Positions 28,176 to 60,616 of a stretch of DNA of 64,000 nt are shown here, piece after piece. Source of the stretch: Leptonema illini DSM 21528. Lineage in GTDB: Bacteria > Spirochaetota > Leptospiria > Leptospirales > Leptonemataceae. The DNA is taken from contig NZ_JH597773.1 of assembly GCF_000243335.1 (NCBI RefSeq), positions 2,039,550 to 2,103,549 of the forward strand, written 5' to 3'. Position 1 is the stretch's first letter; every line of letters starts with the position of its first letter. The notes beneath the pieces are model-generated. The model worked only from the letters and a program-made list of their open reading frames with translations. It searched no databases and had not been told where the DNA came from. A program made the translations under genes and the position numbers.

Positions 28176-28943
28176 ATGGGTATAAATATCAAAAAACGTC
28201 TTGCATGGGTTCCGAATCTCTTCACACTCGGCAACCTCTGGCTTGGATTCTTTTCCTGCATCATCTCTCTTCAGGTGCCTGGTGATCCGCGTTATCTTGC
28301 CATATCGGGGACGATGATCATGCTCGCCGCGCTGCTGGACGGCCTCGACGGCTTCATGGCCCGGCTGCTTGACGCCCAGTCCGAAGTCGGGGCGCAGCTC
28401 GACAGCCTCGCCGATCTGACGACGTTTGGAATCGCCCCGGGCATCCTCGTCTATTCGCTGCTTCTTGCCGACTTCAACGTGGCGCTGAACGATTCAATCA
28501 CGCTTCCTCTGGGTATGTTGATTGCCGGCCTGTATCCGGCTGCCGTTGCCTTCCGTCTGGCGCGATTCAACGTATCCCATGAGCCGGGTGTCTTTCAGGG
28601 CGTTCCCTCTCCCGTCGGAGGCATGATCGTCGCCCTGATGCCGCTTGCCTTTCAGGATGCCATCGTTCTGCCCGATGCCGTTCTTCTTGTGATCTATATC
28701 GTCACCGCCTATCTGATGGTCAGCACGATCCGTTATTCAAAAGTGCAGGTGGCGCTCTTTCGCAAGTTTTCGCTGTTTCGCGGCTCGCTGCTTCTTGCCT
28801 TTGCGATCGGTCTGGTTGCATTTCTTTTGTTTCGCTTCGGAACGCAGTATGCCGCCGCCGCCGTCTTTGCGATGATCATCATGTACATCGTTTCAGGATT
28901 GATCTCGTTCCTGATTCATCTGATACAGGAATATCGCATATAA
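28176..28943 (+). CDS. pssA: CDP-diacylglycerol-serine O-phosphatidyltransferase
   Basis: Makes phosphatidylserine from CDP-diacylglycerol and serine at the inner membrane. The CDP-alcohol phosphotransferase motif is complete in two parts, DGLDGFMARL followed by GAQLDSLAD, at about residues 49-74. The 255-residue protein has six to seven hydrophobic spans. The product is the substrate of the decarboxylase domain encoded at 58.4 kb. A TTGACA lies about 90 bases upstream, but its -10 partner is poor. Confidence 0.93.
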   Translation: MGINIKKRLAWVPNLFTLGNLWLGFFSCIISLQVPGDPRYLAISGTMIMLAALLDGLDGFMARLLDAQSEVGAQLDSLADLTTFGIAPGILVYSLLLADFNVALNDSITLPLGMLIAGLYPAAVAFRLARFNVSHEPGVFQGVPSPVGGMIVALMPLAFQDAIVLPDAVLLVIYIVTAYLMVSTIRYSKVQVALFRKFSLFRGSLLLAFAIGLVAFLLFRFGTQYAAAAVFAMIIMYIVSGLISFLIHLIQEYRI

Positions 28944-54118: not shown

Positions 54119-56584
54119 TCAGCGCGTAAAAGAGACCGTCTGCCCGGCAAGAATCGGCAGGCCATCCGATCTGCGCAGGATCAAGACGTCAAGATTCTCA
54201 CGATAGTCAAGCGTCACACCTTTCAGCTGTACGCTGTCGGCCATCGACGGATAAACACCCTTTACCGTAGCCTTTGCTCCGCGGTCATCTGAGATATGCA
54301 GAGTGATCTGATTCCCGTCGCCTTCAATCTTCAACTTGAAGATGCGCGGCGCGGATTTACCGTCCCAGTAGCGGCCGTTCCATTCGCCCGTCATGCGTTC
54401 GAGGCCCTGGCCGGGCATGAAACGATGCGAGACAACCTCGATCTCTGCGTTTACGAATACGGCGGCCGGTCGGCCATCAGGCGATTCCGATCCCATCATG
54501 GGCTTGCTGCGTACCGTATAGAGATACAGTTCGCCCGGCTTGCCGGGAAACTTTTCAGTGAAACGAAGCGTTTTCGCGTCGGTGTTGCCGGCAAACGTAT
54601 AGTCGGCGGCATCCTTCTTTTTACGCAGCACATAGTACTCGTCGGCGCCTTTTACGCCCTTCCAGGTAATCGTTACCTGTCCCGAAGGTGCAAGCGTGGC
54701 GACGATATCGGTCGGAGCCTCGACCTTCTCGCCGTCGCGCTGCACGTTCGGATTCGCACGACCGACGGCCGGATCGGCATAGCTGCTCGCACCCGATCCG
54801 TTCACGGCGGCGACGGTGTAGGCATAGAAGCTGCCGTCCTTAACGCGGGCTGAGTTATCCACATAGCTGGCAGAGGCGCTTTCGTCGATGGGCCCTTCCC
54901 ACTTCTTTGTCGCATAGCTGTAGCGGAAGATCGCATACTTCTCGGCGCCAGGAGCGGCATTCCATCGCAAAGCGATGCGATCTTTATAGATACCGTTCGA
55001 AACGACAAGGCCGGTCGGCGCATTTGGAGGCGTCGCCTCACCGGGCACAGAGACGGCGGCTACATCGCTCCACGGACCGAAGCCCGAGGCATTGCCGGCC
55101 CGGACCGAATACCGGTTCTCGGCGTTTTTCACGGGGCCCGCATCGGTGAACTGCGTCGTTGTGATCTTCTGATTCCATACCTGCCAGCGATTACCGCCTG
55201 CATTCCAGCGACGGATCTGATAATGAGAGGCGCCGGGAGCCGCAGTCCAGCTAACGTTTACCCTGTAAGAGCCGTTCCCGCCCTGCAGTTCGATCTCGAT
55301 TCCCGGAACGGTAGCGGGGCTCTGCTCTGTCGTCGAAGCCGATGCATAACCCGACGCTACGGGTGAGCTTCCTGCATCAGAGGTCTTCTCTTCGCCGATG
55401 GCGATGATACGATAACGGTAGTTTGTTCCGACCTGGATCTTTGTATCGGCATGCATCGTTTTGCTTGCATAGCCGACGAAACGAAAGGAATCCTGGCCGG
55501 GCTCGGCACGGGTAACTCCATACGCAAGAGCGCCTGTAACGGGAGTCCAGCTGATTTCAATACGATCGGAATAGGTTCCCTGTGAGGCCTCGACCTTTGC
55601 CGGCGGCTGGATGTCGCCCTGAACGACTTCAGTTACCTCTTCCTGGGCATCGGGCGTCGTAGTCGTACCCGCAGCCGGATACAGCACATACGCATACGGG
55701 CGCATGGCGATCCACTGCTTGTAAGAGATCCAGCCGTAGCCTTTATCGCCCCACTGCGTTCCCCAGGAATTGATCAGCTTGAAGGCGCCGCGGTCACCCT
55801 TCGGAGAGGTCTTCGAATCGTCGTAGCCGACAAGCGTCATCGCATGCCCGCCATACGTGCGGCCTCCGGTTTGATCATAGACCTGAGTGCCGAGCTTGTA
55901 GAAGGCGTCGTCGATCGTGATGCCGAAGATGATCGGACGCCCGCCGGCGAGCTCGGCCTTCACCGCCTCGACGTTATCAAACGGAAGTCGTTTGTAAGAG
56001 GCGGCCTTGTACTGCATGGCCGCATTCTTTATGGCCTGTGAAGGCTGCGTACGATAATCGTTTGCGTTATACGGCATCACCTTCCAGGGAGCGGCCCCTT
56101 TCTGTGTAACAAGATCGAGCGCATGATGAAAATACGACCCGCTGTCCTGTCCGCCGTTGATCTGATTATAGATGAAGGCCGGCGAAAAAACTCGCTCACC
56201 GGCTCCCCCATATGGAGGGGAATCATAGCTCCAACCGCGAGCCTTCTTTTCAAGATAGGATCGCGTATAATAGCCGACCGAGAAGGCGACGCAGCTATTC
56301 TGCTGCCCCTGATTGACGACAGGCGGCATATCGGCGCTGAGATCGACGCGCGACGGAAGGCCGCGATGTGAGATCATCGCCGAATCGGCAAGAGGAACGG
56401 ACTCATCAAGCTCGGCGCTCGGCGGCGCAAATCCGCACTGGAACTGTCCTGCCTGGCATTCCCGCGACTGCACGGACTTCGGATCAAAAGGCTGCTCTGT
56501 AAAGGCCGGAGAGGCCACGATCAGAAGCAGAAGAGGCAGGTGCCAGAGCCGATTTCGGAATCGCTCTCGTTTAATTTGTTTCAT
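54119..56584 (-). CDS. Exported papain-family (C1) protease with four FN3 domains
   Basis: An 821-residue secreted protein. The signal peptide covers about residues 14-29. The C1 peptidase domain spans about 75-310 with the oxyanion Gln92 and catalytic Cys98 (VVNQGQQNSCVAFSV), His247 (YGGHAMTLVGYDD) and Asn272 (LINSWGTQWGDKGYGW). Four FN3-like domains follow (about 330 to 720, each with WTPVTGA- or WKGVKGA-like strands), then a last beta domain. No cleaved inhibitory prosegment is obvious between signal and catalytic part. AGGAGGAAT lies 3 bases before the ATG at 56584. Function is probably extracellular protein breakdown or host/biofilm interaction (inference). Confidence 0.9.
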   Translation of the reverse strand: MKQIKRERFRNRLWHLPLLLLIVASPAFTEQPFDPKSVQSRECQAGQFQCGFAPPSAELDESVPLADSAMISHRGLPSRVDLSADMPPVVNQGQQNSCVAFSVGYYTRSYLEKKARGWSYDSPPYGGAGERVFSPAFIYNQINGGQDSGSYFHHALDLVTQKGAAPWKVMPYNANDYRTQPSQAIKNAAMQYKAASYKRLPFDNVEAVKAELAGGRPIIFGITIDDAFYKLGTQVYDQTGGRTYGGHAMTLVGYDDSKTSPKGDRGAFKLINSWGTQWGDKGYGWISYKQWIAMRPYAYVLYPAAGTTTTPDAQEEVTEVVQGDIQPPAKVEASQGTYSDRIEISWTPVTGALAYGVTRAEPGQDSFRFVGYASKTMHADTKIQVGTNYRYRIIAIGEEKTSDAGSSPVASGYASASTTEQSPATVPGIEIELQGGNGSYRVNVSWTAAPGASHYQIRRWNAGGNRWQVWNQKITTTQFTDAGPVKNAENRYSVRAGNASGFGPWSDVAAVSVPGEATPPNAPTGLVVSNGIYKDRIALRWNAAPGAEKYAIFRYSYATKKWEGPIDESASASYVDNSARVKDGSFYAYTVAAVNGSGASSYADPAVGRANPNVQRDGEKVEAPTDIVATLAPSGQVTITWKGVKGADEYYVLRKKKDAADYTFAGNTDAKTLRFTEKFPGKPGELYLYTVRSKPMMGSESPDGRPAAVFVNAEIEVVSHRFMPGQGLERMTGEWNGRYWDGKSAPRIFKLKIEGDGNQITLHISDDRGAKATVKGVYPSMADSVQLKGVTLDYRENLDVLILRRSDGLPILAGQTVSFTR

Positions 56585-56616
56585 GATATTCCTCCTGTTC
56601 ACCCGTACGCCGCTTT

Positions 56617-57087
56617 TCATATATTATTCAGAGACCGGCGAAGCTCTGCCTCTCCCTCCGCGCTCCACAGATCGAAGGCAAAGGGGTTCGGTTCATAAAG
56701 ACGAAAAAGGATGAGATTTCCTCCGTCCTTCTTCTCGGTTTTTTCAGTATTCAGAAAGACAAAATAGCGCCCCGGTTCAGGCGGCGTGCGCATACGCGAT
56801 TCAAAAGAGCCTGGATACAGCACAAACTGCAGGGCAAGGCGTTCGGGGATGTCGACATCCGTCGGCTTCTTTAAAACGCTGACAACGTTCAAAACGACGA
56901 CGGCTGAATCGATGGTTTGATTGAGATTTCGGCTACTGCTGGCAACGACGTCGGCGACAAGCACGACCTGTGAAACCGCTGCGCGCTCCTGAACAGGAAT
57001 CCAGGGCGGTAACGCATATGGCGCCCCGGGCGTCGTGCACTGAAAGGCAAAAAAGGCGGAAAGCAGTAACAGAAATCGCATCGGCAT
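56617..57087 (-). CDS. Small lipoprotein, unknown function
   Basis: A 156-residue exported protein. The signal MRFLLLLSAFFAFQC is followed by TTPGAPY, giving a candidate lipid Cys preceded by Gln. The mature domain is beta-rich (VVLVADVVASSSRNLN, YFVFLNTEKTEKK) and ends with helical charge. Its ATG overlaps the stop of the next upstream gene (TGATG), so these two are translated in a coupled way. The starts at 57087 and 57081 are both possible. Confidence 0.7.
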   Translation of the reverse strand: MPMRFLLLLSAFFAFQCTTPGAPYALPPWIPVQERAAVSQVVLVADVVASSSRNLNQTIDSAVVVLNVVSVLKKPTDVDIPERLALQFVLYPGSFESRMRTPPEPGRYFVFLNTEKTEKKDGGNLILFRLYEPNPFAFDLWSAEGEAELRRSLNNI

Positions 57088-57485: not shown

Positions 57486-58340
57486 TTAAAAGCGCACACC
57501 AACGGAGGCAAAAAGCCCGGTCGTTCCCCAGGTCATTTCGGTCTCGCCTCTGACAAGTCCCTCGAAGCGAAGTGACGGATCAAGATACTGGTTCTGCGCC
57601 GCCTGCTGTAGCTCCACAAGGTCAAGCAGATCGGGTGTCAGCGCATGCGTTCCATCGGTGAGCGTAAACGGCCGGACTTCAGAGCCTCCGGCAAGGCCTG
57701 TGAAATCGCCGGCCAGCCTGTAGTCGATGCGAGCTCCGAAGCGGAAAACGGCCGCCCTCCACTTTTTTACAAGTACAAGCTCCATGCGATACTGAAAGCC
57801 CGAATTGCTTTCCAGCAAGGCCTCATAGCTGCGATTGAAACTGCCGAGATCGGTCTGATAGCCCTTAATGTGCCAGCGCGTCAGAGGAAGCAGACCGAGC
57901 CCGCCGCCGACCTCAAGACTGATATTGCGAAAGTAGCTGCGTATCGGGATGGCATAATGATATGTGAATAGAAGATAACGGAAATCAAAGGTATGTTTCA
58001 CGTTTGTAAAATAGCTTGTACGAATCTCGGTCGTGCTTGCTCCGCCGGCCTCTTCCTGCCCGTAGGCGATTCCAAAGCTATGATTGTCGCCGATGGGCCC
58101 GCTGAATCGAAAAAAGACCTCTCCCGTGCCATAGACCGGGAACGGATCATAGACGATGCCGCGCTGGAAGGCGTTGTACAGGCCCGGACGAAAGCGATAG
58201 ACCCCGCCGCTGAAAGAGTCTTCGTTATGAGATAGCAATCCGTATGTAAAACCGAACTCAAACTCATCGGCATGTAGCCTTCCCGTAACAGGAGCGGCAA
58301 GAATAAGAAGCAGCTTTAAGACCAAATAAGTTCTTTTCAT
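57486..58340 (-). CDS. Probable outer-membrane beta-barrel protein
   Basis: A 284-residue exported protein with a signal peptide (LVLKLLLILAAPVTG, about residues 6-20, ending near HADE). The mature part has many Gly- and aromatic-rich strands (FEFGFTYGLLSHNEDSF, ISLEVGGGLGLLPLTRW) and ends LFASVGVRF with terminal Phe, the usual signature of barrels inserted by BamA. I name no family. Start at 58340 (MKRTY). Divergent from the psd fusion gene. Confidence 0.65.
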   Translation of the reverse strand: MKRTYLVLKLLLILAAPVTGRLHADEFEFGFTYGLLSHNEDSFSGGVYRFRPGLYNAFQRGIVYDPFPVYGTGEVFFRFSGPIGDNHSFGIAYGQEEAGGASTTEIRTSYFTNVKHTFDFRYLLFTYHYAIPIRSYFRNISLEVGGGLGLLPLTRWHIKGYQTDLGSFNRSYEALLESNSGFQYRMELVLVKKWRAAVFRFGARIDYRLAGDFTGLAGGSEVRPFTLTDGTHALTPDLLDLVELQQAAQNQYLDPSLRFEGLVRGETEMTWGTTGLFASVGVRF

Positions 58341-58384
58341 CGCAGGTTGCGTGCAATATTGTGTTCCCTCATCTGACGGCAACT

Positions 58385-60616
58385 ATGAAAACCGATATCG
58401 TTCTTTCAAGCTCCTCTTACCCCATCTTCCTCATCCTGCTGCTTGGCGGATTATTCCTTACGGTTCGCACCGGATGGATTCAGCTGCGCTATCCCTTCCT
58501 CAGTTTGAAAATCCTGGCCGGCGCCCTCGACTGGAAAGGCTCACGAGGCAAGATCACTCCAGGACAGGCCTACTTCGCCGGTTCTCTGGGCAGCCTCATT
58601 CCCGGAACCTTTGCCGGTACGGCCTTTGCCCTTCTTTTCTCGGGCCCTGCGATCTTTCCGCTGCTCTGGCTCATCCATTTTTTTCAGGCGGCCACCGAGT
58701 ATATTCTCTCGACGGCGACGCTTCGCACGCGCAACCGCGGGCGGAAAGGCTTTATGGAATCATCGCTTCTGCTCGCCGCCACCAAGCTGACACGCGTCCG
58801 CTGGGCCGGTTTGTTGCATGCGATCTTCTTTATCGGCGCCGCTCTTCTGGCCGGTTCGATTCTTAACGTCTATCTGCTGCATACGGTGACGCGCGGTGTG
58901 CGCTCGGCGCTGCCGTCTCCGGGTGCTATGGGCCTTGCCGTCGCCTTTCTCTTCGCCGTGATCCTCATCATCGCCGGCGGCATTCGCCGTATCGGTCTCT
59001 TCGGGAAGTTTACGGCCTATGCCGGTATTCTGCTCATCGTCGCCGCCCTTTTTTCGATTTCGTTCAGCCCGCTCACGCATACGGCTCGATTTATCGAAGC
59101 CCTGCTGGCCGATCCGCTTCTGCCTTACAGGCCCGAGCAGCTTCCGATGACGATGCTCAGCGTCGCCGTCTACTTTGCGTTAGCCGAATTCGCAGGCGGC
59201 CGACTGGCCGTCATCTCAGGCCTTGTACGCACCGATCATCCGGCGAAACAGGGCCTTGTGGCGCAGCTTTTCCCGGCGGCGCAGATTCTTCTGTCGTTTG
59301 TCGTCGGCGCCCTACTTTTCGAGCGGTTCTCGGTGCAATCGATCGTGAAGCCCGATGGAGCGCGTGCCGTCGTCGACGGAGCGGCCGGCGCTCTTGACCA
59401 GGTCTTCTCCACCGTGCTTTTGATTCATAGCGACGACATTCTCGCTCCGTTCACCTATCTGCTCGTCGCCGTCTTTGCTCTCTTCGTTATCCTTTCTACT
59501 GTTACATGGCTTTATACGGGCAGCATGACCTTCAGGCATCTGACGGGAAGCCGCATCCCGAACGTATTTCCCGCTCTTGGCGTGCTTCTTGCTCTCTATA
59601 CGGGTTATGCGACTGAGTCAGGATCGTTCCAGGCCTCGGTCTTTTTCACATCATATGTGGGATTCGCCCTTTTCAGCGCCGTCTTCGGTATCTTGCTCGC
59701 CTTCCTGTTCGCGAAACATTCGCGGCAGGAGCTTGTGCGTTATCAGAACTCTCGAGAGGGTAAGCAGGACGTTTCAAGAGATCTCTATTTAATGCTACTC
59801 TCTCTTCTGCCCGCCAATCTCATCTCGCGTTTTTTCGGAGCGCTCTCGCTGTTACGCCTTCCGCGACCGATCCAGACGATGGCGCTCAAGGCCTTCGCCC
59901 GCGCCTACGACATTAATCTTGAAGAAGCCGAGAAGCCGATCGAACAGTACCCGAGTCTGAACGCCTTTTTCACGCGAGCGTTGAAGCCCGGCGTGCGTCC
60001 GATCGATAAAGGCAAGAAAACCATCGTATCACCCGTCGACGCAAAGCTCTCCCGAATGGGAGTGATCCAGGAAGGGCTCCTGATTCAGGCTAAAGGCATC
60101 TATTATACTCTCAAAGACCTGCTCGGAGATCCGCAGTTCGTTTCGTATTTCGAAGACGGCCACTACTGCGTTCTGTATCTCTCGCCACAGGATTACCACC
60201 GCATGCATACGCCCTTTGAATGCGATGTTGTCGGCTACACGTATTCGCCTGGCCGTCTCTTTCCAGTTAATAAGATCGCCGTCGAAGGACTGACAGGCCT
60301 GTTCCCGAAAAACGAACGCCTGACGAGCATTCTGCGTACAAAACACGGGCATATCGCCATGATCAAGGTCGGTGCGACGAACGTCGGCCGTATTCGCGTC
60401 ACCTACGACAGCATCAAAACGAATACGTGGTTTCGCAAACGTCGAGCTCATCTGTATGAGAATCCGCCGAAGATGCAACGAGCCGAAGAGATCGGCCGTT
60501 TTGAGATGGGCTCGACCGTCATCCTTCTTTTCGAGAAGGGAACGATGGAATTCGATGCCGATCGTAGCGAAGGCGATAAGGTACGGCTCGGTCAGCCGAT
60601 CGGTCACTTTCGTTAA
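58385..60616 (+). CDS. psd: Transporter-like membrane domain fused to phosphatidylserine decarboxylase
   Basis: A 743-residue fusion. Residues 1-450 carry about ten membrane spans and resemble the alanine/glycine:cation symporter family: ITPGQAYFAGSLGSLIPGTF then ATEYILSTATLRTRNRGRK; key Gly-Asn residues differ. Residues 465-743 are a phosphatidylserine decarboxylase with SPVDAKLSRMG, SPQDYHRMHTP and the self-cleavage site EMGSTVILLF (Gly709-Ser710), which generates the pyruvoyl group. The enzyme turns phosphatidylserine, made by PssA, into phosphatidylethanolamine. The fusion is unusual; Psd is normally alone. The ATG at 58385 has no clear ribosome site. Confidence 0.88.
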   Translation: MKTDIVLSSSSYPIFLILLLGGLFLTVRTGWIQLRYPFLSLKILAGALDWKGSRGKITPGQAYFAGSLGSLIPGTFAGTAFALLFSGPAIFPLLWLIHFFQAATEYILSTATLRTRNRGRKGFMESSLLLAATKLTRVRWAGLLHAIFFIGAALLAGSILNVYLLHTVTRGVRSALPSPGAMGLAVAFLFAVILIIAGGIRRIGLFGKFTAYAGILLIVAALFSISFSPLTHTARFIEALLADPLLPYRPEQLPMTMLSVAVYFALAEFAGGRLAVISGLVRTDHPAKQGLVAQLFPAAQILLSFVVGALLFERFSVQSIVKPDGARAVVDGAAGALDQVFSTVLLIHSDDILAPFTYLLVAVFALFVILSTVTWLYTGSMTFRHLTGSRIPNVFPALGVLLALYTGYATESGSFQASVFFTSYVGFALFSAVFGILLAFLFAKHSRQELVRYQNSREGKQDVSRDLYLMLLSLLPANLISRFFGALSLLRLPRPIQTMALKAFARAYDINLEEAEKPIEQYPSLNAFFTRALKPGVRPIDKGKKTIVSPVDAKLSRMGVIQEGLLIQAKGIYYTLKDLLGDPQFVSYFEDGHYCVLYLSPQDYHRMHTPFECDVVGYTYSPGRLFPVNKIAVEGLTGLFPKNERLTSILRTKHGHIAMIKVGATNVGRIRVTYDSIKTNTWFRKRRAHLYENPPKMQRAEEIGRFEMGSTVILLFEKGTMEFDADRSEGDKVRLGQPIGHFR

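Follow-up and report, generated by a model that had tools for sequence, protein, structure and literature searches.

The window analysed here is a stretch of 64,000 nucleotides from Leptonema illini DSM 21528. At 58385-60616 on the plus strand, a single frame of 743 codons can be read from an ATG (58385) to a TAA (60614-60616) without an internal stop; an in-frame GTG lies upstream at 58361. The frame, Pfam and NCBIfam profiles, an AlphaFold model and Foldseek searches identified this gene as a fusion of a degenerate AGCS (Na_Ala_symp) domain with phosphatidylserine decarboxylase (Psd), giving a protein of 743 amino acids. The membrane domain (residues 1-452; 58385-59740, plus strand) was delimited by the model, Foldseek and loop charges. 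It is followed on the same strand by a junction or linker (residues 453-475; 59741-59809), which was placed by the model and an alignment of 36 fused proteins from four families and contains the first membrane-surface helix of Psd. The Psd domain (residues 476-743; 59810-60613, plus strand) was assigned by Pfam/NCBIfam, alignment and the model; its N-terminal helices correspond to residues 457-507. The original prediction of one frame joining the two halves without a stop was confirmed by these 743 uninterrupted codons, and the same open fusion was found in 39 other genomes. A sequencing artefact as the source of the fusion was ruled out by these other genomes.

The Psd half is complete, as had been proposed. 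The PS_Dcarbxylase profile (Pfam PF02666) matches residues 525-741 with 203.7 bits (cut-off 22, E 3e-60), the score for TIGR00163 is 217.7 bits (above the cut-off of 111.75), and the EMGST self-cleavage motif is found at residues 707-711. The catalytic residues D552 and H608 and the pyruvoyl serine S710 correspond to D90, H147 and S254 of Escherichia coli Psd (Asp and His from the alignment, Ser from the motif position), and D552, H608 and G709-S710-T711 are invariant across the 36 fused sequences. In the Leptonema genome (4,522,760 bp; its contigs include those of 4,325,094 and 184,087 bp), the fused gene encodes the sole Psd. The fused protein probably has Psd activity. Because a probable phosphatidylserine (PS) synthase gene, pssA, is encoded in the same window (28176-28940, plus strand; pssA is its best match, with 96 bits where the cut-off is 107), the route from PS to phosphatidylethanolamine (PE) seems to be present.

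The membrane half gave a different result in the two profile collections. Pfam PF01235 (Na_Ala_symp) matches residues 53-460 with 32.8 bits (cut-off 24, E 6e-8), whereas the NCBIfam AGCS profile TIGR00835 gives only 60.6 bits against a cut-off of 272.65. Since the membrane half passes the Pfam cut-off but fails both the NCBIfam cut-off and the site residues described below, its sequence marks it as AGCS in ancestry but not in expected function. Elsewhere, the Leptonema genome has two full-length AGCS genes that stand alone. AGCS genes can carry a glycine riboswitch. Neither a glycine riboswitch nor any other riboswitch was found before the fused gene in the window, and none was found at the gathering threshold in the loci of nine relatives.

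The AlphaFold model, computed with 36 fused homologues (pLDDT 84.6, pTM 0.69), places TM0 and ten LeuT-fold helices first; a linker in the cytosol, three short helices and the beta fold of Psd follow. The structure model suggested as a check on the prediction therefore gave membrane helices over the N-terminal half and a Psd fold after them. As for the "about ten" membrane spans, the membrane domain itself was found but the count is 11 helices. In Foldseek searches, the Leptonema model matched AgcS (PDB 6cse; TM 0.83, 18% identity) and E. coli PSD (7cnx; TM 0.84, 32%), so that the LeuT fold and the extra N-terminal helix of AGCS are retained. The N-terminus is predicted outside and the C-terminus in the cytosol. 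Predicted inside loops of the membrane domain hold 19 lysine and arginine residues and outside loops hold six, which places the Psd half in the cytosol.

The transport site did not survive in the same way. In the TM1 segment (residues 72-78; 58598-58618, plus strand), alignment showed that GTGNIAG of AgcS is IPGTFAG in Leptonema: the Asn of the family motif is gone, as the predicted alteration of the Gly-Asn motif requires. In all, six polar family residues are replaced (N79 to T, N162 to S, Q165 to N, N274 to A, T361 to S and N419 to G; L003 numbering), while E268, W375 and the TM1 glycines are retained. Among 59 residues that are invariant in stand-alone AGCS, which we used as the yardstick of decay, Leptonema keeps 16. 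The suspicion that transport has been lost thus appears sound. Loss of the canonical substrate site in Leptonema is well supported by these replacements, and it is probable that the protein does not transport alanine or glycine.

We then consider the distribution of the fusion. The counts cover 48 genomes of the class, none of them a named Leptospira genome. A Psd was found in 45 of the 48, and the fusion is present in one frame in 40 (621-826 amino acids, some cut by contig ends), including Turneriella and others named Leptospiraceae bacteria; it is normally the sole Psd of its genome. In one further genome (G148) the fused gene is divided between two contigs. Three class genomes have a stand-alone Psd: G110 and G120, which form family f5, and G125. 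In the remaining Spirochaetota, Psd is stand-alone, mostly in frames of approximately 280-340 amino acids. Of the 80 best Psd loci in the genome collection, those with an AGCS domain are all from Spirochaetota, and the AGCS profile detected none within approximately 6 kb of a non-Spirochaetota Psd. Plasmids gave partial matches to the Psd half only. The proposed search with both halves therefore showed a class-wide fusion with a nearly gap-free boundary, and PE synthesis via a fused Psd is, as far as gene content tells, a class-wide character of almost all members. In G179 (L040, 5718-7938), the fused gene is broken by a one-base frame change into frames of 310 and 381 amino acids. A genuine split gene was considered there and rejected: the two frames are offset by a single base and the genome is a draft, and we took the difference as an indel.

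How many times did the fusion arise? In the phylogeny that had been proposed as a check, the fused proteins group by their Psd halves into one clade among stand-alone Psd proteins (SH-aLRT 96; 100 after removal of long rows). In a tree of AGCS from this phylum alone, the fused AGCS domains separate from 24 stand-alone members (support 100), and across the 36 fused proteins only four of the 70 junction columns contain a gap. One ancient fusion with a single origin is thus well supported by the sequences. The rpoB tree divides the families into order A (f1 and f2) and order B (f3-f6), with f5 inside order B. The psd-proC-thiL order is common to f3, f4 and f5 (L041, L042, L048, L049, L050 and L051), also where psd is unfused. 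The Psd tree suggested that f5 might be a living pre-fusion state. However, rpoB places f5 in order B and the AU test does not reject its Psd there (p 0.41); because of these two results, loss of the membrane domain from f5 would be the simpler reading. An alternative is that an intact symporter domain was re-acquired in order B, or that the fusion arose more than once. Intact domains are indeed confined to order B, where the stand-alone psd gene of f5 lies in that same psd-proC-thiL order. The single-origin trees for both halves and the shared, nearly gap-free junction argue against it, and the AU result is what would be expected if f5 had lost the domain; we regard this alternative as most improbable.

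The degree of decay differs according to family. By the same yardstick, L043-L048 of order B keep 52-57 of the 59 residues and L049 keeps 41, f2 keeps 28-32, other f1 members and Turneriella keep 19-26, and the extremes keep 8-15. Scores for PF01235 across the fused proteins range from 437 bits to undetected. Pfam gave no AGCS match in six f1 members; profile comparison tied most of them to AGCS at 93-97%, and the tie is weak (75%) for L026/L036 of f1. At the other end, the intact relative L048 matches AgcS 6cse with E 2e-108, and Foldseek of its model gave 43-45% identity and TM 0.88-0.90. Because a motif, once lost, would not be expected to return, the tree suggests that the ancestor was intact and that decay occurred at least twice, in order A and in Turneriella within f3. 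Most order-B genomes with an intact fusion have no other AGCS, and neither do f2 and Turneriella. The strongest truncation was seen in L038 and L039 (genus g7), where the membrane half is shortened to approximately 380-391 amino acids with G46 and D49 kept. Separately, in the sister genomes G145 and G190, stand-alone AGCS matches (L174 and L176, respectively) each contain one TGA inside the aligned stretch.

These observations bear on the idea that uptake of serine, or of alanine or glycine, is coupled to PE synthesis in all fused proteins. Serine is the substrate of PssA, which is present in Leptonema, and the intact AGCS motifs of order B belong to the sole AGCS of most genomes there. However, the polar site residues are gone in Leptonema, which has two stand-alone AGCS, and f2 and Turneriella have no other AGCS as a replacement. 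Moreover, free serine is used by PssA and not by Psd, and PssA is a separate gene 30 kb away. Coupled uptake in all fused proteins is thus very unlikely, and the predicted feeding of serine by the symporter is unlikely in Leptonema, where the binding site is lost; in the relatives with an intact symporter it may still occur.

If the site decayed, is the rest of the domain drifting? Between close relatives, dN/dS is 0.02-0.20 for the membrane half and 0.02-0.08 for Psd where computable, although synonymous sites are near saturation in most pairs. When f1 and f2 fused proteins were compared with stand-alone AGCS, conservation of the cytosolic loops was unchanged (0.515 versus 0.508), whereas that of the mid-membrane core was approximately halved (0.377 versus 0.707); the rank test gave p 1e-6 on alignment columns that are not independent. 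G46, D49, R116, R202, R282 and K288 are conserved on the cytosolic side. G46 and D49, which belong to the cytosolic TM0-TM1 motif K42-x3-G46-x2-D49 (58508-58531, plus strand; alignment of f1/f2 fused proteins), are invariant in 25 of 25 sampled f1 and f2 fused proteins, and neither D49 nor R282 is a family residue of stand-alone AGCS. Newly fixed residues sit in cytosolic loops, and the core has gained no new conserved polar residue. Conserved loops around a decayed core are the pattern that a scaffold with a cytosolic docking face predicts; on this alignment, they do not match the prediction for a route of lipids or amino acids through the core.

This pattern can be set against two further explanations. 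The membrane half might be a neutral relic that anchors Psd and drifts freely while it stays hydrophobic. Its branches are very long (identity 14-34%, against 38-66% for the Psd half), shortened forms exist, and f5 and G125 lack the domain and keep Psd. Free drift does not fit the low dN/dS or the conserved cytosolic residues; furthermore, the full LeuT fold is still predicted and Psd has membrane helices of its own. We consider a neutral relic improbable. Alternatively, the membrane half might still be a transporter that works together with Psd on a changed substrate (a lipid, a lysolipid or a PE-linked amino acid or amine). The purifying selection, the retained fold and the kept E268, W375 and TM1 glycines are consistent with this explanation, and there is a precedent in LplT, a lysophospholipid flippase that some bacteria have fused to the acyltransferase Aas (PMC11416262). 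However, LplT is an MFS protein and not a LeuT-fold protein. The core, which any new site would need, is the region where conservation fell most and shows no newly conserved polar residue, and the domain is further reduced in several f1 members. A changed substrate, including the originally suggested movement of lipid, is therefore unlikely.

We propose that Psd was fused once, long ago, to a working symporter and that in Leptonema the symporter was later retired, becoming a scaffold within the membrane that keeps Psd at the inner leaflet; this is probably the correct explanation. In the ancestor of the class (Leptonema, Turneriella and Leptospiraceae), the cytosolic C-terminus of a working AGCS sodium:alanine/glycine symporter would have been joined to the N-terminal membrane helices of the only Psd in the cell. 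The Psd would cleave itself at G709-S710 and convert PS to PE at the inner leaflet. In order B, where the symporter half is intact in most fused proteins, the protein probably has both functions. The substrate and sodium site was lost stepwise in the order of Leptonema and, independently, in Turneriella, while the fold, topology and cytosolic loops stayed under selection. The Leptonema domain would then be a membrane scaffold, whose cytosolic face may position or stabilise Psd, perhaps a Psd dimer, on the bilayer. Among the three functions originally suggested, a membrane anchor only comes nearest to this; a plain anchor, however, would be redundant because Psd keeps its own three membrane-binding helices, and the conserved cytosolic face fits a scaffold or docking role better. 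In addition, the domain in Leptonema's order may have acquired a new job via G46, D49 and R282, handing PS to Psd or PE from it, or sensing the state of the membrane and gating Psd. This is rather unlikely; if true, a former amino-acid symporter would have become a lipid-handling or regulatory module.

Each of the two domains belongs to a known family. The E. coli PSD forms a dimer of heterodimers, and its three N-terminal helices bind the membrane and also matter for self-cleavage (PMC7952604). The Leptonema Psd half shares with E. coli Psd (PDB 6l06 and 7cnx) the same fold, the catalytic Asp and His, the GST motif and the three N-terminal amphipathic helices. The E. coli enzyme is monotopic and begins at these helices, whereas in Leptonema an 11-helix transporter domain precedes them. 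AgcS from Methanococcus maripaludis (TC 2.A.25) has the fold and predicted topology in common with the membrane half (TM 0.83 for Leptonema and 0.90 for the intact relative), but the Leptonema copy lacks GTGN and other polar site residues and has a C-terminal Psd. LplT-Aas likewise combines a secondary-transporter fold and a phospholipid enzyme in one polypeptide. This is an analogy only: LplT-Aas has an MFS fold, a different enzyme and reaction and an active flippase, whereas the Leptonema domains are AGCS and Psd with the ancestral site lost. No description of the fusion was found in the open-access literature searched. The fused proteins form a graded evolutionary series: after fusion to a central lipid enzyme, a working transporter has lost the site for transport in two or more lineages but has kept the fold. 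With such a series one can test what value a transporter fold retains once transport is gone, and whether a membrane enzyme gains from a polytopic scaffold. Because PE synthesis in most of the class appears to depend on this unusual protein of two domains, care is needed when transporters are counted and lipid pathways annotated there.

Several other features were observed. A divergent neighbour of the fused gene (57486-58337, minus strand) has a weak profile match to the LIC_11366 family; the pair recurs in the same divergent arrangement at the fused gene of f2 (L052), where the LIC_11366 match is stronger. At 54119-56620 on the minus strand, the window encodes a secreted-looking protein of 833 amino acids with a papain-like cysteine protease signature (by eye) followed by apparent fibronectin-type repeats. 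At the rpoB loci (L231-L260), TIGR02013 matches in all these spirochaetes leave out profile positions 892-986, and those of class members show a further break near position 728.
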